Shown one piece after another: positions 4,043 to 27,005 of a stretch of DNA of 64,000 bases (its first letter is position 1; each line of letters opens with the position of its first letter). Made by a program: the position numbers and the translations under genes. The DNA lies in contig CANQRG010000002.1 in the NCBI GenBank assembly GCA_947626165.1, forward strand, positions 1 through 64,000, read 5' to 3'. Source of the stretch: an uncultured Clostridia bacterium. GTDB taxonomy: Bacteria > Bacillota > Clostridia > Oscillospirales > Ruminococcaceae. The notes beneath the pieces were generated by a model. That model searched no databases. It saw only the letters and a program-made list of their open reading frames with translations, and was not told where the DNA came from.

Positions 4043-4608
4043 TAAAAATTGGTATAAATACAGGATATTTAACTGTTAGTAAAACACCAGAATCGCAAGA
4101 AATGTATACTCCTTATTATTGTGTAGAACCAATAATTAAATATATACCTAAAGATAAAGTAATTTGGACACCATTTGACAAAGAGTGGTCTGCATTTTAT
4201 CAGACATTTATACAAAATGGTTATAAAGTAATTAGAAGTCACATTGATGAAGGAAAAGATTTTTTTACATATGAACCAGAAAATTATGATGTAATTGTAA
4301 GTAATCCGCCATTTTCAATTAAAGATAATATACTTGGAAGGTTGTACGAATTGAATAAACCATTTGCAATACTATTACCTATGAATAGTTTGCAAGGCAA
4401 AACACGATATAAATATTTTAAACAAGGTATTCAATTATTATCTTTTGATAGTAGAATAGGATATCACAATAAAGACAATATGGATATACCTGTGGAGGGT
4501 AGTCCTTTCGCAACAGCATATTTTTGTAGAAATATATTGCCTAAAGATTTAATAGTTGAACATATAGAAAAATATAATAAAAGTTTAATATCACAATTTA
4601 AAAAATAA
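4039..4608 (+). CDS. Adenine-specific DNA methyltransferase (NPPF)
   Basis: 189 aa, GTG start overlapping the previous stop. Residues ~86-99 read DVIVSNPPFSIKDNIL: the NPPF tetrad is the catalytic motif IV of N6-adenine methyltransferases. The usual glycine-rich SAM motif is only weakly visible (TPFDKEWSAFYQTF in the position where a DPFxGxG would lie), as is common in short phage DNA-modification enzymes of this type. It probably protects the element from restriction. An alternative is a non-DNA N6-methyltransferase of the same fold. Confidence 0.7.
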   Translation: MIKIGINTGYLTVSKTPESQEMYTPYYCVEPIIKYIPKDKVIWTPFDKEWSAFYQTFIQNGYKVIRSHIDEGKDFFTYEPENYDVIVSNPPFSIKDNILGRLYELNKPFAILLPMNSLQGKTRYKYFKQGIQLLSFDSRIGYHNKDNMDIPVEGSPFATAYFCRNILPKDLIVEHIEKYNKSLISQFKK

Positions 4609-4727: not shown

Positions 4728-5690
4728 TTGCAAATTATAAAAACCCATACAGGAAAAATATATGTGGATACAGAACGACAATTAGAATTTTTAACGGTTG
4801 GCGATTATGGTAAAGAAAACAATATTAAAGCAGATTTTCTCGGATTACATAAAGAAATTAACGGCGTTGCCAATACAGAGGTTGACCTTGCTAAAAAGTG
4901 GGTGGCTACAATAAGCACACAAAAAGGTTGTCTTATGAATTGTAAGTTTTGTGATTGTCCAAGATATGGTTTTTTTGGTAATGCTTCGGTAGATGATATG
5001 TGTTATGAAGTGGAAACGATATTAAAAGGGGAGTCGATTAAAAGTACAAATAGATTCAATGTGCATTTTGCAAGAATGGGTGAACCAACATTTAATTTAA
5101 ATGTTTTGATATTTGCAGAACATAGATTGAGGAATCTTGTAGCTAATTATATTAATGCAAAAACAATACATCCAGTTGTTTCTACAATGTTACCAAATAA
5201 CAACACATCTCTTGAACAGTTTATTCTTGAATGGTGTAATATTAAGAACTTTATTTATAATGGGGAAGCTGGTTTGCAATTTAGTATAAATAGTACAGAT
5301 GATAAACAACGTTATGATCAGTTTAATGGTAAAAGCTTAACCCTTCAGCAAATTTCTGATTTAGCGGCAAGGTTACCGATGCCGATCGGTAGAAAATATG
5401 CTTTGAATTTTGCGGTAACTGCTGACACAATACTTGATGCTAAACGCCTTTCAGAACTATTTGATAAGAAAAAGTTTATTGTTAAAATCACACCTATACA
5501 TGAAACAAATTCTGCTATCAATAATGGGTTTAATGTTACAACTACGTATACTGATTATGATGTTTATAGAAAATTTGAAAATCCATTAATAGATGATGGT
5601 TGGGATGTAATCGTATTTGTGCCTAGCAAAGAAGAAGATAGCGATAGAATTACTTGTGGCAATGCCCTAATTTCACAAATAAAAGAATAA
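4728..5690 (+). CDS. RlmN-like radical SAM enzyme
   Basis: 320 aa from TTG 4728 behind GAGGAGATAAG. CLMNCKFC at ~68-75 is the CxxxCxxC iron-sulfur signature of radical SAM enzymes, followed by ARMGEPTFN (a GEP-type SAM-binding segment). Near the C-terminus ITCGNALI occupies the place of the second catalytic cysteine of RlmN (ACGQL in the housekeeping enzyme). RlmN methylates C2 of adenosine in 23S rRNA and some tRNAs. Here the size and both cysteine features fit an RlmN-like RNA methyltransferase, but a phage enzyme may have a different target. A broken partial copy lies at 32850-32975. Confidence 0.7.
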   Translation: MQIIKTHTGKIYVDTERQLEFLTVGDYGKENNIKADFLGLHKEINGVANTEVDLAKKWVATISTQKGCLMNCKFCDCPRYGFFGNASVDDMCYEVETILKGESIKSTNRFNVHFARMGEPTFNLNVLIFAEHRLRNLVANYINAKTIHPVVSTMLPNNNTSLEQFILEWCNIKNFIYNGEAGLQFSINSTDDKQRYDQFNGKSLTLQQISDLAARLPMPIGRKYALNFAVTADTILDAKRLSELFDKKKFIVKITPIHETNSAINNGFNVTTTYTDYDVYRKFENPLIDDGWDVIVFVPSKEEDSDRITCGNALISQIKE

Positions 5691-5829: not shown

Positions 5830-6399
5830 ATGATTTATGCAGTTTTTTGTGGTTTTTATAGTGATTGGTATGCGGTCGGATACTTTAATAATCGTGTAGA
5901 TGCTGACAAGTATTGCACTGTTTGTGGCAATGATGAATATTACGTCAGGGAAATAAAAAACTTAGAGAATACGGTAGATTTATCTAAGGTTACATTAAAG
6001 TATGAATATTGTGTAACATTTGATTTTAGAGATAATAAATGGATTATGAGGAATGAATCAGGTGAGTATGTTTGTTATAACAGTACGGAGTTAAAACCCA
6101 ATAGAGTATCTTCATATGGGTCTAACCTTTCTTACACAGAGTTAAAACCCAATAGGGTTATTTTTCAAATAAATATCGAAGAAAATAATAGAAAAAAAGC
6201 TGAAAAGATAGCACAGGATTATCTATACAAATTACTGTCATGTAGGGATGGAATTAATATATACGAAGAAGACGTTGAATTAATGGATGACGAGTTTATT
6301 AGACCATTTAAAATCAAAGAAAAACTTCGTCAACAAGAGGAATTACGCAAAAAAGAACTTGCAGAACTGAAGAGATTAAAAGAAAAATATGAGGAGTAA
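5830..6399 (+). CDS. Phage protein with C-terminal coiled coil
   Basis: About 189 aa from ATG 5830 (GTG 5818 is possible but less likely). The N-terminus MIYAVFCGFYSDWYAVGYF is typical of a small-domain family found in Clostridia phages. Residues ~85-105 contain an exact duplicated octapeptide TELKPNRV encoded by near-identical DNA, evidence of recent local duplication. The C-terminus (KIKEKLRQQEELRKKELAEL) is a charged coiled coil. Function unknown. Confidence 0.6.
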   Translation: MIYAVFCGFYSDWYAVGYFNNRVDADKYCTVCGNDEYYVREIKNLENTVDLSKVTLKYEYCVTFDFRDNKWIMRNESGEYVCYNSTELKPNRVSSYGSNLSYTELKPNRVIFQINIEENNRKKAEKIAQDYLYKLLSCRDGINIYEEDVELMDDEFIRPFKIKEKLRQQEELRKKELAELKRLKEKYEE

Positions 6400-6404
6400 A
6401 AACA

Positions 6405-8615
6405 ATGGACAAAATTAATGAAATGTTATTGCGTAGAAAGTATAAAGTAAATCTTCCTATACGAAATCCTATACATAAAACAAGTAAATCAGAAAAAGCA
6501 ATGATTGTTTCTATTGTTAAAAATATAGAGTCTTTAGGTTTTACTTTTGACAAAGAATTATTTGAAAATTTGATGACCTATCCAAAGGATGATATTGAGA
6601 AATTTTATATCGATCTTGTTTCTAAGTTAAAAGCATTGGTAGGTGCAGATAAGGTGTATACTCCGATGTACCCCAACTTTCCTCGACAAGTTGCAGAGGC
6701 AGATGCGGTAGAATTGTTTATTAATGCTATCGATCATTATTGGACTTTTGGTACTTTAATGCCAGAGTATGAAAAAGATAAACGTATGCCTTTATTTGAG
6801 GATAAAAACTTGACTGTTCTTACTGTTGGTACTACAGGTGATGTTTTTGAGATTTTTAAAAATCTTGTTGGTAGTAAGACAAATTTGAGTAAACAGGATA
6901 AAGATGATATGAAAAACATAATTGCTACATATCCAACTTTTTATGACTATCTACCTGATGAAATTCCTCTTAAAGAGAATGTTGCATTGATAGGCAAATT
7001 TATTTTATTAAAGGCTGCTATCAAGAATGCTAGAGCAATTCAAAAGTATTATAAAACAGCAACGGATGTTCTTCGCCTTATTACCGCATTGTCTGATGGT
7101 GATATTTCTCTTGCTTCTAAAACAAAATACAGGAGCCTTCGTAGATGTGAACGTCGTATGGTCATGAATTTGCTTGCCGGTTGTGGAAACATTCTTGAAG
7201 ATATGTATCGTTATAAATATGAATGGATTCGTATTGGTGAAATTATACACCCATTTGAGTATAAAAGGAAAAAGTATGATACTGTTAATGATGCTTTTGA
7301 TATTTTGCGGAATGGGAAAAAACCATTATTTATTCCCGGTAAGGTTCAGAATGCAATTAATAGTGGTGATATTCACACGGCAACTATGTTGTTAAAAAAT
7401 AGACCAGGAGACTTTGCACGTCAACTTGACAAACTTCTTCGTGATGCAGTTGATAAGAATTATATAATAAATTGTTTTCGTGAGGTTGTAAATGATATTT
7501 CTGTTCCTGTTCTGTTACAGGTTAGACAGCATTTTAATGATCGTAATAATGGAAATCCTGTTCGAGTATTTTTTCCAAAAGGAAACCTTGCAAAAGCAAT
7601 TTCTATTCCTAACAAACTTACTGTAATTGATGATAAGATTTGCAAAATAATCGTAAAGATTTGCGATAATGCAATAATTGAACAGTTTAAGAACAAAGAT
7701 TTTATGGGTAATGTTTATATTGACGATGAAATGCGTAATTTTCTTATTCCGTTTAGTCAGCGTTCTGCAAGTAGTGGTAGTAAGAGTATCGTTCGTGGTA
7801 GTCGTATTGGTTTGAATGACAATGCTAAAGCAGTCCGTGCTTTTATCTGGTGGACTAACACTAACAATAGTCGTGTTGATATTGACCTATCTGCTACTAT
7901 CTATGACGAGAATTGGAATTATATTAAGCATATCTCTTACACTAATCTTCGTTCCACCACCTACAAGGCATATCACTCTGGTGATATTACCAATGGTGGA
8001 AGTATTGATGGCGAAGGTGTTGCAGAGTTTATTGACATTGACATTGATACGATTGCAAAATATGGTAGATATGTTGTGTTCCAAGTTTATAGTTTTACTG
8101 GTCAAAAGTTTTCTGTATTATCTAATTGTCGTTTTGGTTGGATGGAGCGTAAAAATGTTGATTCTGGTGAAGTTTTTGAACCATCTACTGTTGATATGCA
8201 CGTTGATATAACTGCTGAAGGTGTTACTGCTATTCCGGTTATCTTTGATTGCCAAACAAGAGAATTTATTTGGTGTGATATGAACCTTTCAATAAGTCAA
8301 AACAGAAGCCATCATTTTGGTAACAATCTTGAAAGTAATCTTCATGGTGTAACGGCTGTGTGTTATGCTATGACACACCTAAGTAAACCCAACCTATATA
8401 CTTTAATTCTTCTGAACACAATGGCGAGAGGTTATATTGTTACGGACAGAAATAAGGCAGACATTATCTTTTCAAATGATACTACTCCACCTGTAGAAAT
8501 TATTGAAACTGAAGATGAAAAGACTGGTGAAAAAAAGTTGGTAGAACATGAGAAGTCAGATGTTCAGGTTATTACTGCATATGATACAGATTACTTTATA
8601 GGATATCTTCTTTAA
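6405..8615 (+). CDS. Helical-repeat / TerD-domain protein
   Basis: 736 aa, ATG 6405 after GAGGAGTAAAAACA. Residues ~1-450 are almost entirely helical (for example ATDVLRLITALSDGDISLAS and KYRSLRRCERRMVMNLL), like an alpha-solenoid, and match my memory of a bacterial family associated with Ter stress proteins. Residues ~475-600 carry a TerD-like beta-sandwich: RVDIDLSATIYDENW, then HSGDITNGGSIDGEGVAEFIDIDI, the calcium-binding signature region of TerD. The C-terminal ~130 aa is a further domain ending in an acidic tail. The structured RNA with a permuted tRNA core begins right behind it with its own promoter, an arrangement reminiscent of Ro60-type proteins beside Y RNAs. However, the N-terminal TROVE signature is not present, so an RNA-binding role is inference. 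Confidence 0.6.
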   Translation: MDKINEMLLRRKYKVNLPIRNPIHKTSKSEKAMIVSIVKNIESLGFTFDKELFENLMTYPKDDIEKFYIDLVSKLKALVGADKVYTPMYPNFPRQVAEADAVELFINAIDHYWTFGTLMPEYEKDKRMPLFEDKNLTVLTVGTTGDVFEIFKNLVGSKTNLSKQDKDDMKNIIATYPTFYDYLPDEIPLKENVALIGKFILLKAAIKNARAIQKYYKTATDVLRLITALSDGDISLASKTKYRSLRRCERRMVMNLLAGCGNILEDMYRYKYEWIRIGEIIHPFEYKRKKYDTVNDAFDILRNGKKPLFIPGKVQNAINSGDIHTATMLLKNRPGDFARQLDKLLRDAVDKNYIINCFREVVNDISVPVLLQVRQHFNDRNNGNPVRVFFPKGNLAKAISIPNKLTVIDDKICKIIVKICDNAIIEQFKNKDFMGNVYIDDEMRNFLIPFSQRSASSGSKSIVRGSRIGLNDNAKAVRAFIWWTNTNNSRVDIDLSATIYDENWNYIKHISYTNLRSTTYKAYHSGDITNGGSIDGEGVAEFIDIDIDTIAKYGRYVVFQVYSFTGQKFSVLSNCRFGWMERKNVDSGEVFEPSTVDMHVDITAEGVTAIPVIFDCQTREFIWCDMNLSISQNRSHHFGNNLESNLHGVTAVCYAMTHLSKPNLYTLILLNTMARGYIVTDRNKADIIFSNDTTPPVEIIETEDEKTGEKKLVEHEKSDVQVITAYDTDYFIGYLL

Positions 8616-8643
8616 ACCATTTGAAGTTTATTATAATTTTTTA

Positions 8644-8691
8644 AATTAAATCAGAAAAACTATTGACGAATAATAAAGCATATTGTAATAA
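8644..8691 (+). promoter_or_regulatory. Box-linked sigma-A promoter for the structured RNA
   Basis: AATTAAATCAGAAAAAC (8644-8660) is followed after two bases by TTGACG (8663-8668), a 17-nt spacer and TAATAA (8686-8691). The same box and geometry recur at 23096 and 48065 with TTGACA. Transcription would begin near 8698, in front of the non-coding RNA and well downstream of the stop at 8615. Confidence 0.65.
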
Positions 8692-8697
8692 AAATAA

Positions 8698-9165
8698 GAT
8701 AACAAGTTTAGTGATTTCGGCTGTTATACTCTTCCTTCTATTGTTGAAAAACACTTGATTTGGGATCAAAAATATAGAGTGTAAGATTACCGAAAATTTC
8801 TATCGGCTATCAAATTTTATCCTTAGAAAATCATATAGCAATATGTGACGATTATAAAACAAAAGGAGTTGAAGACAATGGATAAGCAAGGCGGAAAGTA
8901 AAACTAGATATCACTTTACACTAACTTTAAAATGGAACTTTGTGTCACGGGTTCAAGTCCCGTCCGCCAGAAATTCTTGGTGGTAGCTCAGATGGTAGAG
9001 CAAAAGTATTGAGAGAAATTTGAATTTCCGAATAAAATGAACTTTTTATCTTCATTCGGCTGGTAGGATTCATCCTTCTATTACCTATTACATATAAAGC
9101 CGTATGTTTAAAACAGCGGCAAATATAAAAGAATCCAAAATTTCCGAAATATATTTAAAGAGAGT
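8698..9165 (+). ncRNA. Structured RNA with a circularly permuted tRNA core
   Basis: No long frame lies between 8615 and 9174. The region contains nested helices: 8715-8720 with 8790-8795, 8724-8732 with 8776-8784, and a hairpin 8755-8759/8765-8769. A second set lies 3' of the core: 9028-9033 with 9054-9059, and 9066-9071 with 9131-9136 enclosing a GCCG/CGGC hairpin (9099-9120). The middle (8937-9007) folds as a complete tRNA in permuted order, see the separate entry. A seven-codon frame MDKQGGK with a ribosome binding site (8878-8901) is embedded. Boundaries are set by the promoter at 8663-8691 and the ribosome binding site of the next gene; I do not recognise a known RNA family. Confidence 0.6.
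8937..9007 (+). tRNA. Circularly permuted tRNA-like module
   Basis: In genomic order: anticodon-stem 3' strand ACTTT (8937-8941), variable GTGTC, T-arm ACGGG-TTCAAGT-CCCGT (8947-8963), acceptor 3' strand CCGCCAG (8964-8970), linker AAATTC (8971-8976), acceptor 5' strand TTGGTGG (8977-8983), TA, D-arm GCTC-AGATGGTA-GAGC (8986-9001), A26, anticodon-stem 5' strand AAAGT (9003-9007). Acceptor (7 bp, two G-U) and anticodon (5 bp) strands match across the permutation. Conserved tRNA positions are kept: T8, A14, G15 with C48, G18-G19, A21, and the T-loop TTC. The free ends lie at the anticodon loop, so identity cannot be read. It may be a tRNA mimic, a precursor whose ends are rejoined, or two tRNA remnants. 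Confidence 0.6.
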
Positions 9166-9173
9166 TTATTATT

Positions 9174-9947
9174 ATGACAAAGAAAATTGTTACGCAACCA
9201 ATAATTAAATCAGAAAAACTATTTCTTGACGTTTTTAACTCACTTTGTTATTCACGTAATGCATGGGAAGTATGGGCTGATTTTATTACCGCAACCGCTT
9301 GTTCACTTGCAAACACAGTTGATCGAAGTAGTGAGATTCATAATGAGCGTGAAAAAGAATATGCAAAGTGCATTGAAAGACTTGGAGGAGTTGACAATGT
9401 TGCAAAACTTTTTGCATGTGTTGTAGATGCAGTAGAAGAAAATTCAGAACAAGATTTTCTTGGTGGTTTGTTTATGAAACTAAATCTTAACAATCACTGG
9501 AAAGGTCAATTTTTTACCCCATACTGTGTATGTAGAACAATGGCTGCTATTACAGCAGACGAAATAGAAAACAAAATTGCCAATAATGGATGGGCTTCAA
9601 TAAGTGACCCAGCTTGTGGTGCAGGGGCTACGCTAGTTGCAATGGCTAATGTTCTAAAAGAGCATAATGTTAATTATCAAAATCATGTGCTATTTGTTGC
9701 ACAAGATATTGACCGAGTAACTGGACTTATGTGTTATATTCAATTGTCATTACTCGGATGTGCTGGGTATGTAGTTATTGCCGATACTCTTTGTAATCCA
9801 GCGACTGGGAAAACAGTGCTTTTTCCATATGAAAAAGAGGGTCAAGAATTTTGGTATACTCCAATGTTCTCATCTGATATATGGGCATATCGTAGAAAAT
9901 ATAATCTAATGGATTTATTTTTGGCTAATAACACCAACAAAAAATAA
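9174..9947 (+). CDS. HsdM-like N6-adenine methyltransferase domain protein
   Basis: 257 aa, ATG 9174. After ~115 residues, GQFFTPYCVCRTMAAI is the FTP segment found before motif I in type I (HsdM) methyltransferases. DPACGAGATLVAM (~143-155) is the SAM-binding motif I, and AQDIDRVTGLMCYIQLSLLG matches motifs II-III. The expected catalytic NPPY after these motifs is not evident (ADTLCNPATGK is in that area), and the protein ends early, so it may be a catalytically altered or shortened form. No HsdS or HsdR gene is nearby. A copy of AAATCAGAAAAACTA lies within its first codons. Confidence 0.7.
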   Translation: MTKKIVTQPIIKSEKLFLDVFNSLCYSRNAWEVWADFITATACSLANTVDRSSEIHNEREKEYAKCIERLGGVDNVAKLFACVVDAVEENSEQDFLGGLFMKLNLNNHWKGQFFTPYCVCRTMAAITADEIENKIANNGWASISDPACGAGATLVAMANVLKEHNVNYQNHVLFVAQDIDRVTGLMCYIQLSLLGCAGYVVIADTLCNPATGKTVLFPYEKEGQEFWYTPMFSSDIWAYRRKYNLMDLFLANNTNKK

Positions 9948-19896: not shown

Positions 19897-19923
19897 AAGT
19901 CAAGAGTGATAAGGAGGTATAAA

Positions 19924-20946
19924 ATGAATTTAGCAGAAATAAAAAGCAAATTAAACTGCTCTAAATATGATTTTCTAAGAAATAATGAAAATCTCGGTGA
20001 TAATATAATATTGCTTGGACTTGGTGGTAGTCATGCTTACGGAACTGATAATGAAAATTCAGACCTTGATATTCGTGGGGTAGCCACAAATTCTCGTAGA
20101 AATATTTTTATCAGAAATGATTTTGAACAAGTAGTTAATGTTGATACTGATACTACTATTTATTCGTTTGACAAAATAGTAAAACTATTATGTTCTTGTA
20201 ATCCAAATACGATTGAGATGTTAGGTCTTAAACCGGAGCATTATTTATATTTATCTGATGTCGGTAAATTATTGTTAGAAAATAAAAGTCTATTTTTATC
20301 AAAAGTTGTCGTACATACATTTGGTGGGTACGCAAATGCTCAATTACACAGATTAGAGAACAAAACTACACGCCTTGTATCTCAGAGTCAGAAAGAAGCA
20401 AATGTTTTAAAAAGCATTGAACACGCATCTGTTGATTATAAGATAAAATATTTTGAACATCCGCCAGATGCAATTAGATTGTTTGTTGATAAGTCATTTA
20501 GAGAAGATTATGATTCTGAAATCTTTATGGATGTAAATTTAACTCATTACCCATTGAGGGATTTCAAGGATATGTGGTCTGAAATGCACGCAATTGTAAA
20601 GTCTTATGATAAGATTGGTAAAAGAAATGAAAGAGCTATAACACATGATAAACTAGGAAAACATATGATGCATCTTATTAGGCTTTATTTTATGTGTTTT
20701 GATATTCTTGAAAAAGGTGAAATTAATACATATAGAAGTGCCGAACATGATTTACTAATGTCAATTCGTAATGGTGAATATCTTGATGAAAATAGACAAC
20801 CAATACCTGAGTTTTACGAAATGGTTTATGACTTGGGAAAACGATTAGATTATGATAAGAATAATACAAATTTGCCAGAGCGAGTTGATATGTCAAAAGT
20901 CAACAATTTTGTTGCAAGTATAAATGAAAAAGTTTGTTTAGGTTAA
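19924..20946 (+). CDS. COG3541-type nucleotidyltransferase
   Basis: 340 aa from ATG 19924 behind AAGGAGGTATAAA; an upstream frame to 19906 lacks a binding site. LLGLGGSHAYGTDNENSDLDIRG (residues ~30-52) contains the GS...DxD active site of the DNA polymerase beta nucleotidyltransferase superfamily, in the form typical of COG3541 predicted nucleotidyltransferases. The substrate is not known. It is the first gene under the lysogeny promoter and heads a block with a CCA-adding enzyme, RNA ligase and polynucleotide kinase, which suggests an RNA-end-modification role. Confidence 0.75.
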   Translation: MNLAEIKSKLNCSKYDFLRNNENLGDNIILLGLGGSHAYGTDNENSDLDIRGVATNSRRNIFIRNDFEQVVNVDTDTTIYSFDKIVKLLCSCNPNTIEMLGLKPEHYLYLSDVGKLLLENKSLFLSKVVVHTFGGYANAQLHRLENKTTRLVSQSQKEANVLKSIEHASVDYKIKYFEHPPDAIRLFVDKSFREDYDSEIFMDVNLTHYPLRDFKDMWSEMHAIVKSYDKIGKRNERAITHDKLGKHMMHLIRLYFMCFDILEKGEINTYRSAEHDLLMSIRNGEYLDENRQPIPEFYEMVYDLGKRLDYDKNNTNLPERVDMSKVNNFVASINEKVCLG

Positions 20947-20960
20947 AGGAGAGTATTGCT

Positions 20961-21905
20961 ATGACTAGAGAAGAAGTAATGAATTCAATTTCATTAAAAA
21001 AGCGTTTTTGCAAAGATTGCAATTTACCCATCGTTGTTTATGATAATCCATATTTCTATGAACGTTTGCAAACCATTGATGTTTTGTTCAATTGTATATA
21101 TAAATTTGATGTGTTTTGTCTTGAGTTACAGCGGTTTGCAAGTGAACAAGATTATTTTGAGTACTATAATAAAATTAAAGATTCTGTTATTGAATTTATT
21201 AAAGCAAAGGATGAATATAATAGTTTCATCAATGATGATTATTCGGTTGAGTCAATTGTTCCAAAAAGAAATATATACATAGAAGATAATGATAATAAAG
21301 CATTTGTTTCTATTGATATGAAAAAAGCAAATTTCTCTGCGATAAAGCATTATTCTCCAGAGATTTTTGATGGAGCAGATACTTGGGAACAGTTTGTGGC
21401 TAAGTTCACAAATAGCCAGCATATCATACATAGCAAGTATATTCGTCAAGTTATTCTTGGCGCTTGCAATCCTAAAAAGCAGATTGAATATGAACATTGC
21501 CTTATGAATATTTTGTGTAAACACATTATTAATACCATTCCTAGTGCTTCTATCTTTAGTTTGGGTGAGGATGAAATTATTATTAGTGTTCCTAGTGAAT
21601 ACGGAGTGAGCTGTGGTTTTTCCCTTTCTGAACTTAAAAAAGCTATAGATAGTTGCCCTCTTAACATCGGTCAGCTTGTAAGGGTGAAAATGTTTGAGTT
21701 ATACAAGATTGAAGGCATTGATGGATATATAAAGATTTATAATAATGATTCAAATGATATTGAATTTAAATGTTTGAATGCTGAAATCTTTCACCAGATT
21801 GTTAAACATTATTTTGGTAAACCTATTACTGAGAATGATTTGGTGTTCTATCATGATGGCAAACTCGCTAAATTTTTAGAAGAAGTAAATAATCCATGGA
21901 ATTAA
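20961..21905 (+). CDS. Unassigned palm-like polymerase candidate
   Basis: About 314 aa from ATG 20961 behind AAAGGAGAGTATTGCT. I do not recognise the family. Two acidic motifs are spaced as in palm-domain polymerases: KAFVSIDMKKANFSAI (~115-130, hydrophobic-D followed by a pattern like polymerase motif A) and SIFSLGEDEIIISV (~196-209, like the DE of motif C or the SDEIS of Thg1-type 3'-5' polymerases). A helix with SKYIRQVILGACNPKK between them could hold template- or NTP-binding basic residues. Its position between a nucleotidyltransferase and a CCA-adding enzyme supports an RNA role. The polymerase idea is inference. Confidence 0.4.
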   Translation: MTREEVMNSISLKKRFCKDCNLPIVVYDNPYFYERLQTIDVLFNCIYKFDVFCLELQRFASEQDYFEYYNKIKDSVIEFIKAKDEYNSFINDDYSVESIVPKRNIYIEDNDNKAFVSIDMKKANFSAIKHYSPEIFDGADTWEQFVAKFTNSQHIIHSKYIRQVILGACNPKKQIEYEHCLMNILCKHIINTIPSASIFSLGEDEIIISVPSEYGVSCGFSLSELKKAIDSCPLNIGQLVRVKMFELYKIEGIDGYIKIYNNDSNDIEFKCLNAEIFHQIVKHYFGKPITENDLVFYHDGKLAKFLEEVNNPWN

Positions 21906-23101
21906 GATTACCTAGCAACGTAAAATATATTTTGAATAAGCTCAATGAGTGTGGTTATGAAGCCTATGTTGTTGGTGGCTGTGTCCGCGATAGCATCATA
22001 GGCTTAATTCCACACGACTGGGACATTTGCACTTCTGCATTGCCGAAACAGATTATAAAAGTATTTAACGATCACAAAATTATTCCAACTGGATTAAAGC
22101 ATGGCACGGTTACTGTTGTTATTGATAATGAGCAGTATGAGATAACTACTTATCGTATAGATGGCGAATACAAAGATAATAGACATCCATCGGAAGTAGC
22201 TTTCACAAGTAGCTTAAAAGAGGATTTGAAACGCAGAGATTTTACAGTCAATGCAATGGCTTACAATCCGTCAATTGGGTTAATTGATTTCTTTGGCGGT
22301 AAAAAAGATATAACAAATAGGGTAATCAAAAGTGTGGGCAAGCCAGACGATAGATTTAATGAAGATGCACTGAGAATTCTAAGAGCAATACGATTTTCAA
22401 TTACTCTTGGATATAATATTGAATCCCAAACACTGCAATCAATTTATAGAAATAAATCGTTACTTAAAAATATTTCAATAGAACGCATTAACACAGAAAT
22501 AACAAAGGCGTTTTCTTGTGGTTATTCTGTTGTTATGGGTAAAATTTTACAGGTTATTGTTCCAGAACTTACTGATAGAATGATTTATGATACTATAACA
22601 ATGGTAGGTGTTTTAGATACATCATTAAATGTTAGGCTTGCTTTGGTGTTTAATTTTGAAAAAAAGAAACAAAAGGAAATACTACAACGATTAAGATTTG
22701 ACAATAAAACAATTAAAAATGTTTGTGACATTCGTAAAGTAACTTATGATATTTGTAATAGCAAAGAACTTGTTCCACAAATTATTGTAAAACACATACT
22801 TAATTATAATGAGAAAATTATTAATGATGTTATTTGTGCCCTTAGATGTGTTTCGTATATTGATAATAATATAACATATTATATGTTCGCTGATAATATG
22901 AATAATTGTCTATCAAAATGTAAAAATGAATGTTATAAAATTTCGCAATTAAAAGTAAATGGAGAAGATATGAAATCAATTGGTTATTTTGGTAAGGAGA
23001 TAGGTATAACATTAAATTCATTATTATTTGCCGTTATAGAAGGGAAAATCCCTAATGAATTTAATGCACTAATGGAATATTCACAAAAAATTAAAAATTA
23101 A
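21896..23101 (+). CDS. cca: CCA-adding tRNA nucleotidyltransferase
   Basis: 401 aa, ATG 21896 overlapping the preceding gene by 10 nt. AYVVGGCVRDSIIG, HDWDICTSALP (catalytic DxD), TYRIDGEYKDNRHP and KEDLKRRDFTVNAMAYNP are the consecutive class II CCA-enzyme motifs, followed by DALRILRAIRFSI and a helical C-terminal region of near-normal length. It adds or repairs the 3' CCA of tRNAs. A phage copy fits with tRNA repair or with the element's own tRNA-like RNAs, neither of which has an encoded CCA. Confidence 0.9.
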   Translation: MELRLPSNVKYILNKLNECGYEAYVVGGCVRDSIIGLIPHDWDICTSALPKQIIKVFNDHKIIPTGLKHGTVTVVIDNEQYEITTYRIDGEYKDNRHPSEVAFTSSLKEDLKRRDFTVNAMAYNPSIGLIDFFGGKKDITNRVIKSVGKPDDRFNEDALRILRAIRFSITLGYNIESQTLQSIYRNKSLLKNISIERINTEITKAFSCGYSVVMGKILQVIVPELTDRMIYDTITMVGVLDTSLNVRLALVFNFEKKKQKEILQRLRFDNKTIKNVCDIRKVTYDICNSKELVPQIIVKHILNYNEKIINDVICALRCVSYIDNNITYYMFADNMNNCLSKCKNECYKISQLKVNGEDMKSIGYFGKEIGITLNSLLFAVIEGKIPNEFNALMEYSQKIKN

Positions 23102-23143
23102 ATCAGAAAAACTATTGACAAATAAATTAAATGATGATATAAT
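23075..23143 (+). promoter_or_regulatory. Box-linked consensus promoter, copy A of a 52-bp repeat
   Basis: The 52 bp at 23075-23126 are identical to 48044-48095. They contain AATTAAATCAGAAAAAC (23096-23112) and TTGACA (23115-23120); a 17-nt spacer and TATAAT (23138-23143) complete a perfect sigma-A promoter. The repeat overlaps the last codons of the CCA-enzyme gene. The promoter drives the zinc protein and RNA-ligase genes. Confidence 0.8.
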
Positions 23144-23175
23144 GTATAAGAAGATAAGAAAGGGGCATTTGAAAT

Positions 23176-23397
23176 ATGTTTTGTAAGAGATGCAACAAGG
23201 CTATGCGGCGTGTAATGAGCTTTTATAATGGTAAAACATATGAGTTTTTTCGATGTCCATTTTGTTGGTATGAATCAAAAAAAATGCCTTTTATTTTTAA
23301 GAACATAGAATTAAATCGGAAAAAGACTGAAATTAAATCTAATGTTTTAAAGAGAAAACCTCGAACAAAGTGTATAAATAAGAAAAAGAAAAAATAA
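23176..23397 (+). CDS. Small zinc-ribbon protein with basic tail
   Basis: 73 aa behind AAAGGGGCATTTGAAAT. CKRCNKAM and CPFCWYESKK make a zinc ribbon; the rest is lysine- and arginine-rich, ending in KKKKK. The DNA contains an AATTAAATCGGAAAAAGACTG stretch almost identical to 4664-4684, read here as codons. A nucleic-acid-binding role is plausible. Confidence 0.55.
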   Translation: MFCKRCNKAMRRVMSFYNGKTYEFFRCPFCWYESKKMPFIFKNIELNRKKTEIKSNVLKRKPRTKCINKKKKK

Positions 23398-23413
23398 GGA
23401 GAGAGAAAGATTT

Positions 23414-24348
23414 ATGTATTGTGCTTATATTACGACAATTAAGGAAATCCATAAGCACTCCAACGCTGATAGGCTACAGTGTTGTGAGATTTTTGGAAAC
23501 AATGTAATTGTCGATATGAGCTACACTGTAGGGGACAGAGTTGTTTACTTTCCCGTTGACGGTCAGCTTAGTGAAGATTTTGCAAATGAAAACAACTTAG
23601 TTCGTAAGAAAGACGAAAACGGTAATAATGTTGGTGGCTATCTTGAACCAGATAAAAGAAATATTCGTGCTTTAAAACTTCGTGGTGAGAAGTCGGACGG
23701 TCTTGTGCTTCCAATTTCTGTGCTATCCAAGTACACCGATATTGATAACTTAAAAGATGGTGACCAAATTACAGTCCTTAATGGACAGGAAATTTGCAAG
23801 AAGTATATTCCTCGTGGAAATAATGGGAGTCATTCAAATGGTATGAAGGTTTCTAAAAATAAAAAAGAGGAACATCAAAAAATATCTTATCCGTTTTTTA
23901 CAGAACATAAGTAAAAGATAAAGAATTTAGTAGACAATATGGCAGTGAAACAATTTTTACATATGGTTGTAAGCCTGGTGAAAATAAGTGTTATATTTAT
24001 CGAATTACAATGACAAACGATGACGGTATAACTATTGAAATTCCCACCGAGGAAACAATTAAATGGTGTGACCGTCTTGGTTGCGAATATGTTCCACTGC
24101 TTGAAAAGTTCCTTTATACAACTTGGGAAGATTTGAATGATAGATGCGCACAATATCTCGATGTTCCAGAACCTCTTGCTAATGGCAGTCATGTTACTGA
24201 AGGTGTTGTAGTTAGAATTGATAATCGCTCTAAATTTACAGCTTATAAGACCAAATCTTTTGCTTTTAAAGTTTTAGAGGGAATTATTAAAGATACTGCT
24301 AACGCCCCAGACATTGAGGAATCAGAGGAACTAATTAATGTAGGTTGA
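23414..24348 (+). pseudogene. DraRnl-type RNA ligase with catalytic domain deleted
   Basis: The N-terminal OB-like domain is intact (IKEIHKHSNADRLQCCEIFG, GDRVVYFPVDGQLS, ALKLRGEKSDGLVLP), to a stop at 23914 after ISYPFFTEHK. In another frame from 23911 the protein resumes with DKEFSRQYGSETIFTYGC and ends with the ligase C-terminus, EGVVVRIDNRSKFTAYKTKSF. In this family the adenylyltransferase segment with the nucleotide-accepting lysine lies between these two parts; here it is missing, apparently by an internal deletion of a few hundred bases. The gene cannot make a working ligase as written. Two stable halves could still be translated (start 24010 for the second). Confidence 0.75.
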
Positions 24349-24352
24349 TTGA

Positions 24353-24466
24353 ATGAAATATATTATGAAATATATTTGGCATATATTCATTGTTGCATTA
24401 TCTATATATATGTCAGTTAATTATTCGATGTGGTGGCTTTTATTGCTATTACTATTCGATGAATGA
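24353..24466 (+). CDS. 37-aa membrane peptide
   Basis: MKYIMKYIWHIFIVALSIYM followed by a second hydrophobic stretch, WWLLLLLLF. ATG 24353 lies next to the previous stop, without a strong ribosome binding site. It may be a real micro-protein, as at 5754, or a chance frame. Confidence 0.35.
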   Translation: MKYIMKYIWHIFIVALSIYMSVNYSMWWLLLLLLFDE

Positions 24467-24502
24467 GGATTGCCACTTTATAATTGGGAATGAGGTTATT
24501 GA

Positions 24503-25078
24503 TTGAATAAAGAAATGCCAGTGATATTGATTGATCTAGATGATACAATCGAAGAATTGTTACAAGCTTGGGTGTATTTCCTAAATAGCAAATATAGTAT
24601 GAATGTTTCTGTAGATGATATTACAGATTGGGATATGTGTATATTCTATCCATCGTTGACAAGACAACAAGTTTTTGAGCCTTTACATCATGATGAGTTT
24701 TGGAAGACAGTCAAACCGAAACCCGATGCTATAGAATATGTAGAGAAATTATTTAGTGAAGGATATAACATTTTCCTTTGCACATCTACCGATTATAGAA
24801 ATATTCGTGCAAAATATGAATACATAGTAAAACGATATTTCCCTTATATTAAGTGGAGTAATGTAATTGTTGTAAATAATAAGCAAATGATTCAAGCTGA
24901 CTATTTAATTGATGATGGAATTCATAATCTTGAAAATGGTAACTTTATTAAAATTTTAATGACAGCTCCACATAATAGAAATTATGATGCAAGTGCAAAT
25001 GGAATGCTTAGAGCTAATAGTTGGAAAGAAGTTTATGAACTTATCCATCATTTTGAAGTAGAAAATACCGATATATAA
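24503..25078 (+). CDS. 5'(3')-deoxyribonucleotidase-like HAD phosphatase
   Basis: 191 aa, TTG 24503 behind GAGGTTAT. ILIDLDDTIEELL (DxDxT, residues ~8-20) is HAD motif I, CTSTDYRNIR is motif II, and ADYLIDDGIHNLEN is motif IV with the DD pair. The spacing and WVYFLNSKYSMN insertion match 5'(3')-deoxyribonucleotidases (NT5C family), which dephosphorylate dNMPs and could tune nucleotide pools during replication. Confidence 0.75.
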   Translation: MNKEMPVILIDLDDTIEELLQAWVYFLNSKYSMNVSVDDITDWDMCIFYPSLTRQQVFEPLHHDEFWKTVKPKPDAIEYVEKLFSEGYNIFLCTSTDYRNIRAKYEYIVKRYFPYIKWSNVIVVNNKQMIQADYLIDDGIHNLENGNFIKILMTAPHNRNYDASANGMLRANSWKEVYELIHHFEVENTDI

Positions 25079-25092
25079 AGGAGGTATATGTA

Positions 25093-25960
25093 ATAAAAAC
25101 AATAATAAGTCCAATATTTTATATGGGTAATAAAAAGAAATTAATAAATAAAGGATTAGTTGAATTATTTCCTTCAAACATAAATACGTTTATTGATTTA
25201 TTTGCTGGTTCTTCAATTGTGTCAATGAATGTTGTTGCAAATAAAGTCATTGTAAATGATATAAACAAAAATCTATTTGAATTTTACCGAATGTTTCAAA
25301 TAAATTCCGCAGACTTAATTATAACACATATTCTTAATAATATCAAAAAATTTGGGATGAAGCGGATAGGTGTTAATCAAAAATCCGATGAAGCTTCAAT
25401 TTATAAACAAAGATATTTAGATATGAGAAACTACGCAAATGAATCCAAAGACTGGAAAGATATCTACTCTTGCATATTCTATGCATTTTCCCAACAAATG
25501 CGATTTAACACAAAAGGCAAATTTAATATGCCATTTGGGAATGGTGCTTTTACTGAGCAAAATGAACAGTATATTCGTGACGGTTGTGATTTTTTTTCAA
25601 CGGCAGAATGTAAAGATTACAAATTTTGATTTTCGCAAAATTAAAATTAATAAACTAAATGAAAATGATTTTGTTTATCTTGATCCGCCATATTTTAATA
25701 CTACTGCTACCTACAATGAAAATAATGGTTGGTCTATTAATGACGATTTGGATTTATTTGAAATTTGTGAGTTGCTTTCCGCACAAAACATAAAATTTGG
25801 GATGTCCAATGTATTTAAATGTAAAGGTAAAGAAAACACACATCTGGTTGAGTGGTGTAAAAAATGTGGTTGGAATGTTTATACATTTGATAATTTTACA
25901 TATATGGCTTGTGGAAAAGGTAATGCAGATGCGCAAGAGGTTTATATTTGCAATTACTGA
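25093..25960 (+). pseudogene. Dam-type adenine methyltransferase with poly-T frameshift
   Basis: ISPIFYMGNKKKLINKG and NTFIDLFAGSSIVSMN (SAM motif I) start the protein, and FVYLDPPYFNTTATYNE (catalytic DPPY) lies in a different frame downstream of a T8 run at 25590-25597. Removing one T joins the halves through NVKITNFDFRKIKIN into a ~280-aa Dam-class N6-adenine methyltransferase. The family N-terminus begins before the first ATG (25123), in KTIISPIFYMG with GGAGGTATATGTA upstream, so the true start is not a standard codon here. It is either phase-variable, decayed, or a sequencing error. Confidence 0.75.
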
Positions 25961-25985
25961 AAAGTAATATTAACTGGAGGATTAA

Positions 25986-27005
25986 ATGAATAATAAAACT
26001 ATTGAAAATATAACCCCCGCTTTTAGGAGCGTTTATGAGTGCGAAAATGCAAATAAAACTCCCATTTTATTTTTGATGATGGGGGTAGCTGGTAGTGGCA
26101 AGTCATTTATTGCTGAAACACTTGTAACTAAAAAGAATGATGAATTTGTTAAGCCTATCATCCATTCTTCCGATGCACTTAGGGCTGAACTTTATGGCGA
26201 TGAAAATAACCAGAAACATAATGGCGATTTGTTTAATGAGCTTCACCGTCGTATCAAAGATGATTTGCGTAACGGTAAAGATGTCGTATATGATGCAACT
26301 AATATTAGTAAGAAACGTCGTAGGGGATTTCTTCAGGAATTGAAAAACATTAATTGTCATAAAGTTTGCATTTGTGTTCTTACTCCATATGAGCTTATTC
26401 TACAACAAAATCGTATTAGAAATAAAAAAGTTCCAGAATATGTGATTAAAAAAATGTATTTAAGTTGGTGCCCACCTGCTATGGATGAGGGGTTTGACAA
26501 TATCGTTCTTGCTTATAATTATGGCGATATTGATAAGAATAAATTTACTTTAGACAACTTTTTCAATGGTGAGATTAATGCAAACAATATCGACCAAGAA
26601 AATAGCCATCATCGTTCTACTATTGGTGGTCATTGTCTTGAAGCTGCACAGTATGTAAAAGAACATTTTCCTAATCACTATAATCTGAAAACTGCTGCAC
26701 TTCTTCACGACATTGGCAAAGTATTTACAAAGTCAAATTTGAATTCTCGTGGCGAGATTGATACAGATTGCCATTATTATGGACATAATAATTGTGGAGC
26801 GTATGATTCATTCTTTTATACTGATGTGCTTGATATACAACAAGATGATAGATTACATATTGCTAATTTAATTTACTATCATATGATGCCATTTACTTTT
26901 TGGAATCAAAGTAAAAATGCTGAAAATAAAACTAAAACACAAGTTGGTGAAGAGTTTTTTGATGAAATTATGAAACTGCATGAAGCCGATTTGGCAGCAC
27001 ATTAA
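25986..27005 (+). CDS. Polynucleotide kinase-HD phosphohydrolase fusion
   Basis: 339 aa, ATG 25986 behind CTGGAGGATTA. MMGVAGSGKSFIAE (~31-44) is a Walker A loop, followed by HSSDALRAELYG and VVYDATNISKKRRRGF, the pattern of T4 Pnkp-type 5'-kinases. From ~205 on, STIGGHCLEAAQYV, AALLHDIGKVF and YYGHNNCGAYDS form an HD phosphohydrolase domain, which in HD-Pnk enzymes removes 2',3'-cyclic or 3' phosphates. Together they would heal RNA or DNA ends for ligation. The domain order (kinase first) is the reverse of the HD-Pnk enzymes I know. The partner ligase upstream is broken. Confidence 0.8.
   Translation: MNNKTIENITPAFRSVYECENANKTPILFLMMGVAGSGKSFIAETLVTKKNDEFVKPIIHSSDALRAELYGDENNQKHNGDLFNELHRRIKDDLRNGKDVVYDATNISKKRRRGFLQELKNINCHKVCICVLTPYELILQQNRIRNKKVPEYVIKKMYLSWCPPAMDEGFDNIVLAYNYGDIDKNKFTLDNFFNGEINANNIDQENSHHRSTIGGHCLEAAQYVKEHFPNHYNLKTAALLHDIGKVFTKSNLNSRGEIDTDCHYYGHNNCGAYDSFFYTDVLDIQQDDRLHIANLIYYHMMPFTFWNQSKNAENKTKTQVGEEFFDEIMKLHEADLAAH

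Follow-up and report, generated by a model that had tools for sequence, protein, structure and literature searches.

A circularly permuted tRNA-like fold within an array of covarying RNA modules beside a gene for an NF041916 homologue

Y RNAs of the YrlA type are among the described systems that most resemble the RNA reported here. Compared with tRNA, YrlA is circularly permuted (PMC11472068), and according to a review it is a tRNA mimic that is modified by TruB and DusA (PMC8394870). In Listeria phage CKA15, highly transcribed regions upstream of an Rsr-like gene are suspected to be Y RNAs (PMC12282133). A Ro60-related protein was reported for a Vibrio jumbo phage in an article that also mentions YrlA in phages (PMC7765460), and some jumbo phages carry TROVE proteins (PMC7824862).

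The locus analyzed here is located in a window of 64,000 nucleotides (the whole stretch of DNA under study) on a contig of 198,730 bp, and the genes of this window include those for a phage major head protein, a DNA polymerase and a DnaB-like helicase. Like the phage Ro-like (TROVE) systems of CKA15 (PMC12282133) and jumbo phages (PMC7824862), it harbors a phage-borne gene for a putative RNA-binding protein. In contrast to these systems as they are described there, the candidate partner is a 736-aa protein of the NF041916 type without detectable TROVE similarity, and the RNA modules are defined by covariation and occur in arrays. One module shares with YrlA (RF02553; Salmonella YrlA, PDB 6CU1) the permuted tRNA fold, the closed acceptor, the two helices with an asymmetric internal loop and the lack of a free CCA end. 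However, it stays below the Rfam gathering score, has another internal loop and a box of its own (AUCCUUCUA), is part of a tandem array with other inserts, and is linked to an NF041916-type gene and not to TROVE/Rsr. Its predicted two-helix stem with internal loop covaries, but differs in sequence from the basal stem of YrlA. In the permuted tRNA genes of algae and archaea the 3' half precedes the 5' half with a short linker. The fold in the window has the same arrangement, whereas junctions of its type lack a common anticodon loop and its ends are positioned in a long covarying stem. A tRNA-like domain is also found in tmRNA and permuted tmRNA (RF00023, RF04321), but the fold in the window has a full D stem, no tag reading frame was seen, and there were no matches at the gathering score. 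At L004, L006, L007, L014 and L015, loci related to the window, genes for tmRNA or permuted tmRNA (RF00023, RF04321, RF01849) are located a few kb from the protein gene.

Three tandem modules downstream of the protein gene

Comparison with a phage contig (L002), whose neighbouring protein is 82% identical to the 736-aa protein, identified three tandem copies of one covarying RNA module in the gap at 8616-9173 (M1 to M3, Table 1). The module is composed of a helix H1 of 5 bp with GG/CC at its end, an internal loop that is mostly CUNN/(A/G)AUUN, an 8-bp helix H2 closed by a C-G pair, a box (A/U)UCCUUCU, i.e. (A/U)UCCUUCUA, and a variable insert. The nested long-range helices that the preliminary description had noticed on both sides of the tRNA are therefore real, but their arrangement is that of a repeated module. 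The pairing beside the anticodon stem, which had been considered weak, is in fact the 8-bp H2 of M2 (CAAAUUUU/GAAAUUUG), with CAAGUUUC/GAAACUUG as its counterpart in L002. In H1 of M2 the outermost A/A is unpaired and the next pair is T-A. M1 and M3 were matched by model R1 with 60.2 bits (E 4.8e-13) and 62.9 bits (E 8.5e-14), respectively, both being in its training set, and M2 by model R2, whose training set includes it, with 97.1 bits (E 2e-20). The additional stretch in the 5' linker of M2 contains AAAGGAG followed by a seven-codon ATG..TAA frame at 8878-8901. An inner hairpin of M3, GCCG (9099-9102) with CGGC (9117-9120), was recognized by eye.

Table 1. Features of the window discussed in the text.
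Feature	Position	Strand	Remarks
736-aa protein, candidate partner of the RNA modules	6405..8615	+	NF041916 homologue; C-terminal part weakly TerD-like
Promoter-like block	8643..8702	+	conserved before the same modules in L002 (there TTGACA-17-TATAAT by eye)
Module M1	8716..8794	+	H1 8716-8720/8790-8794; H2 8724-8731/8777-8784; box UUCCUUCUA 8732-8740
M1 anticodon-arm-like hairpin	8755..8769	+	4 pairs UUGA/UCAA; 7-nt loop UUUGGGA, the loop of tRNA-Pro(UGG)
Module M2, holds the permuted tRNA	8802..9032	+	H1 8802-8806/9028-9032; H2 8811-8818/9015-9022; box AUCCUUAGA 8819-8827
Additional ~100 nt in M2 5' linker	8827..8930	+	without counterpart in the other 15 rows of alignment A4
Circularly permuted tRNA-like fold (order AC, T, acceptor, D)	8937..9007	+	stem pairs; ARAGORN on rejoined halves; YrlA match; covariation in relatives
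Anticodon (AC) stem	8937-8941/9003-9007	+	
T stem	8947-8951/8959-8963	+	
Acceptor stem	8964-8970/8977-8983	+	
D stem	8986-8989/8998-9001	+	
Module M3	9055..9148	+	H1 9055-9059/9144-9148; H2 9064-9071/9131-9138 (7/8 pairs); box AUCCUUCUA 9072-9080
RlaP-like nucleotidyltransferase	19906-20946		
CCA-adding enzyme	21896-23101		
RNA ligase	23953-24273		weak match below family cut-off
AAA_33-HD protein	25986-27005		resembles polynucleotide kinases

The scaffold was analyzed in 65 modules from 12 loci that were selected by landmarks without requiring pairing, including some with a wrongly picked 3' landmark. H2 was paired in 469 of 520 cells (shuffled mean 267.6, maximum 306) and the outer H1 in 160 of 195 (shuffled mean 106.9, maximum 124). 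In a MAFFT alignment of 34 simple modules (A5), the rows of which were cut at ends set by a pairing-based finder, 94.1% of the cells pair with a covariation score of 0.846, compared to 35.6-47.5% and 0.092-0.143 when slid. Alignments A8, which omits the weakest 16 of 166 R1 matches from bacterial/MAG loci, and A9 have 97.7% and 93.2% paired cells; as both were fitted to the model, their covariation leans towards it. The choice-free tests of pairing are this 65-module test and the 12-module test of the permuted tRNA described below.

The claim that the RNA has its own promoter at 8644-8691 holds in part: the block is conserved upstream of the modules in L002, but a sigma-70 scan gave no plus-strand site there at its threshold. 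The segment 8639-8702 is similar to stretches of Enterococcus phage DNA, most of which are covered by genes with the annotation hypothetical protein, and no terminator was found in 8560-9200. A block AAATCAGAAAAACTATT is present at 8648-8664 and again at 9207-9223, inside the next gene (9174-9947), and both sites also match the block preceding the L002 modules. In phages the arrays occupy both sides of the gene and reach nine modules (L002). Between two module groups of L002 (12602-13382) lies a gene that appears FolD-like by eye and is missing at this place in the window. An RNA-repair-like gene set is located within 19906-27005 of the window (Table 1). RtcB was not found in the genome. The T4-type RNA ligase family PF09511 gave no match, which is uninformative since the control also had none anywhere.

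The permuted tRNA fold and its relation to YrlA

M2 contains a complete, circularly permuted tRNA fold exactly as the preliminary description had claimed, with standard pairs at all listed stem positions and an acceptor end closed by AAATTC (8971-8976). ARAGORN called no tRNA in the unaltered 64-kb window. When the halves were rejoined over a 7-nt loop, a search that had been proposed along with the fold, a tRNA was called in eight of eight joins, with an anticodon that varied by join (His, Gln, Pro, Ser). Of the two properties expected of a tRNA gene after processing, an anticodon loop and a free acceptor end, neither is apparent from the sequence: the acceptor is closed and the junctions lack a common anticodon loop by eye. 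At gathering scores, Rfam had no match in the whole 64 kb. With a relaxed threshold, the YrlA model matched 8925-9028 (37.5 bits, E 1.2e-6; the gathering score of 69 is not reached) and tmRNA matched the T-arm side of the fold (13.9 bits, E 0.0015). The YrlA model also matched 7 of 14 control genomes at E<=0.001, none above the cut-off; these matches are presumably tandem tRNA genes.

Covariation of the two tRNA halves, which had been named beforehand as the test, was analyzed in relatives, and the fold passed it, as both helices that cross the permutation covary. Twelve modules of relatives were selected by sequence landmarks and an insert of 80-100 nt, without use of pairing, and T- and D-arm landmarks were present in all of them except the one at L021:5643. 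In the remaining 11, the acceptor strands paired in 71 of 77 cells (shuffled mean 43.2, maximum 64) and the anticodon strands in 41 of 55 (shuffled mean 29.1, maximum 39), and none of 5000 shuffles reached the observed acceptor or anticodon pairing. A larger set comprised the 33 modules that could be parsed among 34 R2 matches picked by hand; it leans towards pairing, as R2 rewards it. Here the acceptor strands, with 31 distinct 5' strands, paired in 216 of 231 cells (shuffled mean 122.4, maximum 149) and the anticodon strands in 134 of 165 (shuffled mean 80.0, maximum 99), although these counts include the poorly parsed L023:3100 and L006:12869 and the poorly parsed anticodon stems of L003:12433, L004:6008 and L177. 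Left out of the 34 were L095 and L209 (copies of DNA already used), the RNAs of TROVE loci, L008, L014, L015, L004:5887, L108 and a few weaker matches. The covariation of acceptor and anticodon strands in relatives shows that the permuted arrangement did not arise by chance or as the remnant of a deletion; selection acts on the permuted tRNA as a fold.

Model R2, which was built from 16 permuted-tRNA modules, also gave full-length matches to many simple modules and weak partial matches over ordinary tRNA genes (e.g. L002:16903, L031, L010). By eye, the insert of the module at L004:5887-5992 seems to keep the anticodon and D strands of the permuted tRNA without T arm and acceptor. In ten TROVE loci searched, R2 matched RNAs beside seven TROVE genes (L080, L079, L056, L050, L049, L054 and L051; E 1e-12 to 6e-5) and had no match in L052, L053 and L055. 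This indicates that the top of the module is YrlA-like. Together with the sub-threshold YrlA match and the covarying halves, it supports in part the earlier reading as a Y-RNA-like tRNA mimic. That reading did not recognize the mimic as a single insert within a repeated module, nor did it notice the hairpins in other modules that resemble anticodon arms or that no TROVE similarity is seen in the linked protein. Two bacterial genomes, G066 and G105 (L074, L075, L078, L079, L080), contain a TROVE gene with a YrlA-like RNA as well as NF041916 genes with the new modules; the YrlA-like RNAs at these TROVE genes had no Rfam match at the gathering score.

The partner gene and tRNA parts in simple modules

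The 736-aa protein was matched by NCBIfam NF041916 (MXAN_6230/SCO0854 family RING domain-containing protein) with E 4.7e-119 and 398.9 bits. As the curated cut-off is 600, it is an NF041916 homologue that falls short of full membership as set by the curators. Profile positions 103-165 are unmatched in it, and the profile matches all 14 members of protein alignment A1. It also matched PHROG 33734 (E 6e-88), and its C-terminal part showed a weak match (E 0.015) to PDB 2kxt, a TerD-like tellurite resistance protein. No Pfam family, TerD and TROVE included, was detected in the protein, comparison of its family with TROVE by hhalign gave probabilities of 1.2, 1.6 and 0.5%, and TROVE (PF05731) had no match anywhere in the genome. 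An assignment as a divergent TROVE protein, made first by eye, was dropped, as it was supported neither by Pfam nor by the PDB profile search nor by the three profile-profile comparisons. The names MXAN_6230 and SCO0854 were absent from the open full-text literature searched.

Modules and gene are linked in both directions. At E<=0.01, R1 matched 79 of 80 bacterial/MAG loci fetched with the protein (all but L104) and 36 of 39 viral ones (all but L185, L214 and L216). The 80 loci are not all independent, since L095, the locus of Ruminococcus bromii YE282, is identical to a stretch of L006 and L090 and L091 contain the same gene, and many linked loci are closely related to each other, those of Paenibacillus above all, or are copies. 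The 39 viral loci remained from 55 after 10 previously used contigs and 6 near-copies, judged by score, had been removed, and likely mutual copies were kept among them (L186-L188, L198/L199/L201, L209/L217). Among the early phage relatives with homologous proteins (L002-L015), R1 matched 8 of 14 at E<=0.01; it was missing in L008, L009, L010, L013, L014 and L015, of which L008, L014 and L015 have R2 matches. The aligned module matches are located at a median distance of 133 nt from the gene, 221 of 249 within 500 nt, with gene ends taken from tblastn matches and set for many loci to a common 6001-8050. Modules of the 80 bacterial/MAG loci are always on the same strand as the gene. In Bacillales, a locus contains on average fewer than two modules, which are short, usually precede the gene and in most cases lack tRNA parts. 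A further module about 1.8 kb upstream of the gene was seen near 4100 in the Brevibacillus loci L130, L136 and L138.

In the reverse direction, a search of viral contigs with a DNA pattern of the module gave 29 stretches, seven of which carry the gene (L021, L023, L024, L032, L034, L038 and L046); two of the contigs concerned had previously been found through the protein. In 18 other pattern-fetched stretches that served as controls, R1 had no match at E<=0.01 (best 0.071). Four pattern-fetched stretches (L031, L037, L042 and L045) share an apparently unrelated element of about 165 nt that matched the pattern. Under stricter filters, R1 matched 4 of 396 genomes, namely the genome of the window, G105, G335 and G120, and the first three carry NF041916. 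The match in G120 (E 8e-4) was rejected as a likely false positive, as the surrounding genes look unrelated by eye. G066 and G376, which carry NF041916 with R1 matches beside it (L074, L075, L077), are not among the four and were either not drawn or missed. R1 found nothing in ten TROVE loci at E<=0.1 or, at E<=0.01, in six pieces covering 80-199 kb of the contig of the window, and over the whole genome it matched M1 and M3 only.

Inserts are mostly short among the closer relatives of the window. The idea that they resemble anticodon arms arose from viewing A5 and was then tested on the same modules, i.e. on 43 non-redundant inserts from 46 simple modules in which 6 or more of the 8 H2 pairs form. 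A perfect 5-bp stem with a 7-nt YUNNNRN loop was present in 13 of the 43 (shuffled mean 1.29, maximum 7 in 1000 sets). Seven nucleotides was the most enriched loop size on perfect stems (23/43; shuffled mean 10.7, maximum 19); loops of 5 and 8 nt were mildly raised and those of 4, 6 and 9 nt were not. Exact anticodon loops of real tRNAs, taken from 79 seven-base loops of 219 tRNAs called in the fetched loci, occurred in 12 of 43 inserts (shuffled mean 0.47, maximum 4): Lys-UUU six times, Pro-UGG three times including M1, Ser-UGA twice and Ser-GCU once. These counts are not independent events, as several Lys-UUU modules are probably orthologous. M1, with a stem of 4 pairs, is the only module of the window with an anticodon-type loop. 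T-arm-like hairpins (ATAGG-TTCAACT-CCTAT) were found in L004 and L023.

Loci collected later were compared with 107 reference loops of 498 tRNAs, and inserts longer than 80 nt were dropped. Real anticodon loops were found in 6 of 32 simple modules from 15 non-Bacillales genome/MAG loci (expected 0.68, maximum 3), one of the six, in L095, being DNA already seen as L006. Neither the other viral loci (5 of 71 modules; expected 1.12, maximum 5) nor the Bacillales loci (2 of 52; expected 0.28, maximum 3) exceeded the shuffles, which indicates that the display of tRNA parts is not a universal role of the scaffold. It belongs to the closer relatives of the window and not to the scaffold everywhere. 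Among the inserts there are pairs in which the loop differs on a near-identical stem (CTTTTAA vs CTGCTAA in L002 and L023) or on an identical stem (CTGCAAA vs CTGTAAA in L004 and L095). In both cases the change is within the three anticodon positions, and such confined loop swaps are regarded as telling.

Possible roles of the array

The comparisons tentatively point, with somewhat less than even confidence, to a Y-RNA-like ribonucleoprotein array of tRNA mimics, which may act as a decoy or bait, or as a sensor, for tRNA-targeting enzymes. The constant scaffold (H1, internal loop, H2 and the AUCCUUCUA-type box) would bind the protein encoded at 6405-8615, and the inserts would present tRNA surfaces: M2 the top half of a tRNA, with acceptor, T and D arms but no free 3' end, and M1 an anticodon arm. 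Host enzymes that attack tRNA, above all anticodon nucleases, could be decoyed or baited in this way; the array might either soak them up or report their attack to the partner protein, while the RNA-repair-like genes of the phage would mend the real tRNAs. Anticodon nucleases are the leading candidate target, since the recurring loops include that of Lys-UUU, which is targeted by PrrC and by the PARIS effector.

The most serious alternative is that the modules are cis elements, such as an mRNA leader or processing or autoregulatory sites bound by the product of the adjacent gene, and that their likeness to tRNA is incidental to protein binding. The short distance to the gene, the constant strand in the 80 bacterial/MAG loci and the few, mostly upstream and mostly tRNA-free modules of Bacillales fit this explanation; it is nevertheless considered unlikely, as phage arrays occur on both sides of the gene with up to nine modules and the permuted tRNA covaries as a complete fold. 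A classical Y RNA would link a Ro60/TROVE (Rsr) protein with an effector, for example PNPase, that is recruited by the tRNA-like part. The YrlA match at 8925-9028 and the order helix, asymmetric loop, helix and permuted tRNA, shared with the RNAs beside bacterial TROVE genes (L079, L080), are consistent with such a role, and Ro-like genes occur widely among phages (a single bacterial TROVE protein matched 67 records). With a genome free of TROVE matches, a linked protein family without TROVE similarity, a YrlA score below gathering and no R1 match in the TROVE loci, however, this role appears rather improbable. Much the same low probability is given to a sink or guide for tRNA modification, in which copies of the T, D and anticodon arms would titrate or recruit modification enzymes. 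It agrees with the modification of YrlA by TruB and DusA described in the review, with the T-arm-like inserts and with an RlmN-like radical SAM gene at 4728-5690, but leaves the recurrence of Lys-UUU and Pro-UGG loops unexplained. The product of the latter gene resembles RlmN/Cfr at a level far below the curated cut-offs.

Two further explanations, the first of them raised by the preliminary description, concern the permuted fold itself. If it were a permuted pre-tRNA gene whose ends are rejoined into a working tRNA, the ARAGORN calls in all eight joins would be expected, and a purine-rich G(G)GA that precedes the 3' anticodon strand in several modules could be read as part of a loop. Yet the anticodon changes with the join, inspection by eye revealed no anticodon loop shared by the junctions of the 33 modules, the covarying H2/H1 hold the ends, and RtcB was not found in the genome, which makes this explanation very improbable. 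The probability that remnants of two adjacent tRNA genes or a chance fold are involved is close to nil. The sub-threshold YrlA matches in control genomes and the weak partial R2 matches over ordinary tRNA genes are in favor of it, but acceptor and anticodon strands covary across loci, the acceptor loops of the units remain short, and the units are embedded in a covarying scaffold.

Returning to the decoy, bait or sensor array, it is possible, though held tentatively and at slightly under even odds, that these loci represent an undescribed RNA-protein system in which bacterial proteins of the NF041916 family are served by an RNA scaffold of their own that phages expanded into arrays of dissected tRNA parts for decoy or surveillance against tRNA-destroying immunity. 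Scaffold, array and partner are new as far as the literature was searched, whereas permuted tRNA mimicry of the YrlA type is already known. No paper combining 'TerD domain' and 'Y RNA' was found in the open full-text literature, and searches for permuted tRNA with phage, TROVE/TerD/phage, anticodon-nuclease decoys and tRNA-mimic phage RNAs gave nothing alike by title or abstract. An earlier description is possible. With these modules, a poorly characterised family of bacterial and phage proteins gains a covarying candidate RNA partner. Y-RNA-type tRNA mimicry exists beside proteins without detectable Ro60/TROVE similarity, and this suggests an RNA counterpart to the tRNA and tRNA-repair genes of phages in the contest over tRNA cleavage.
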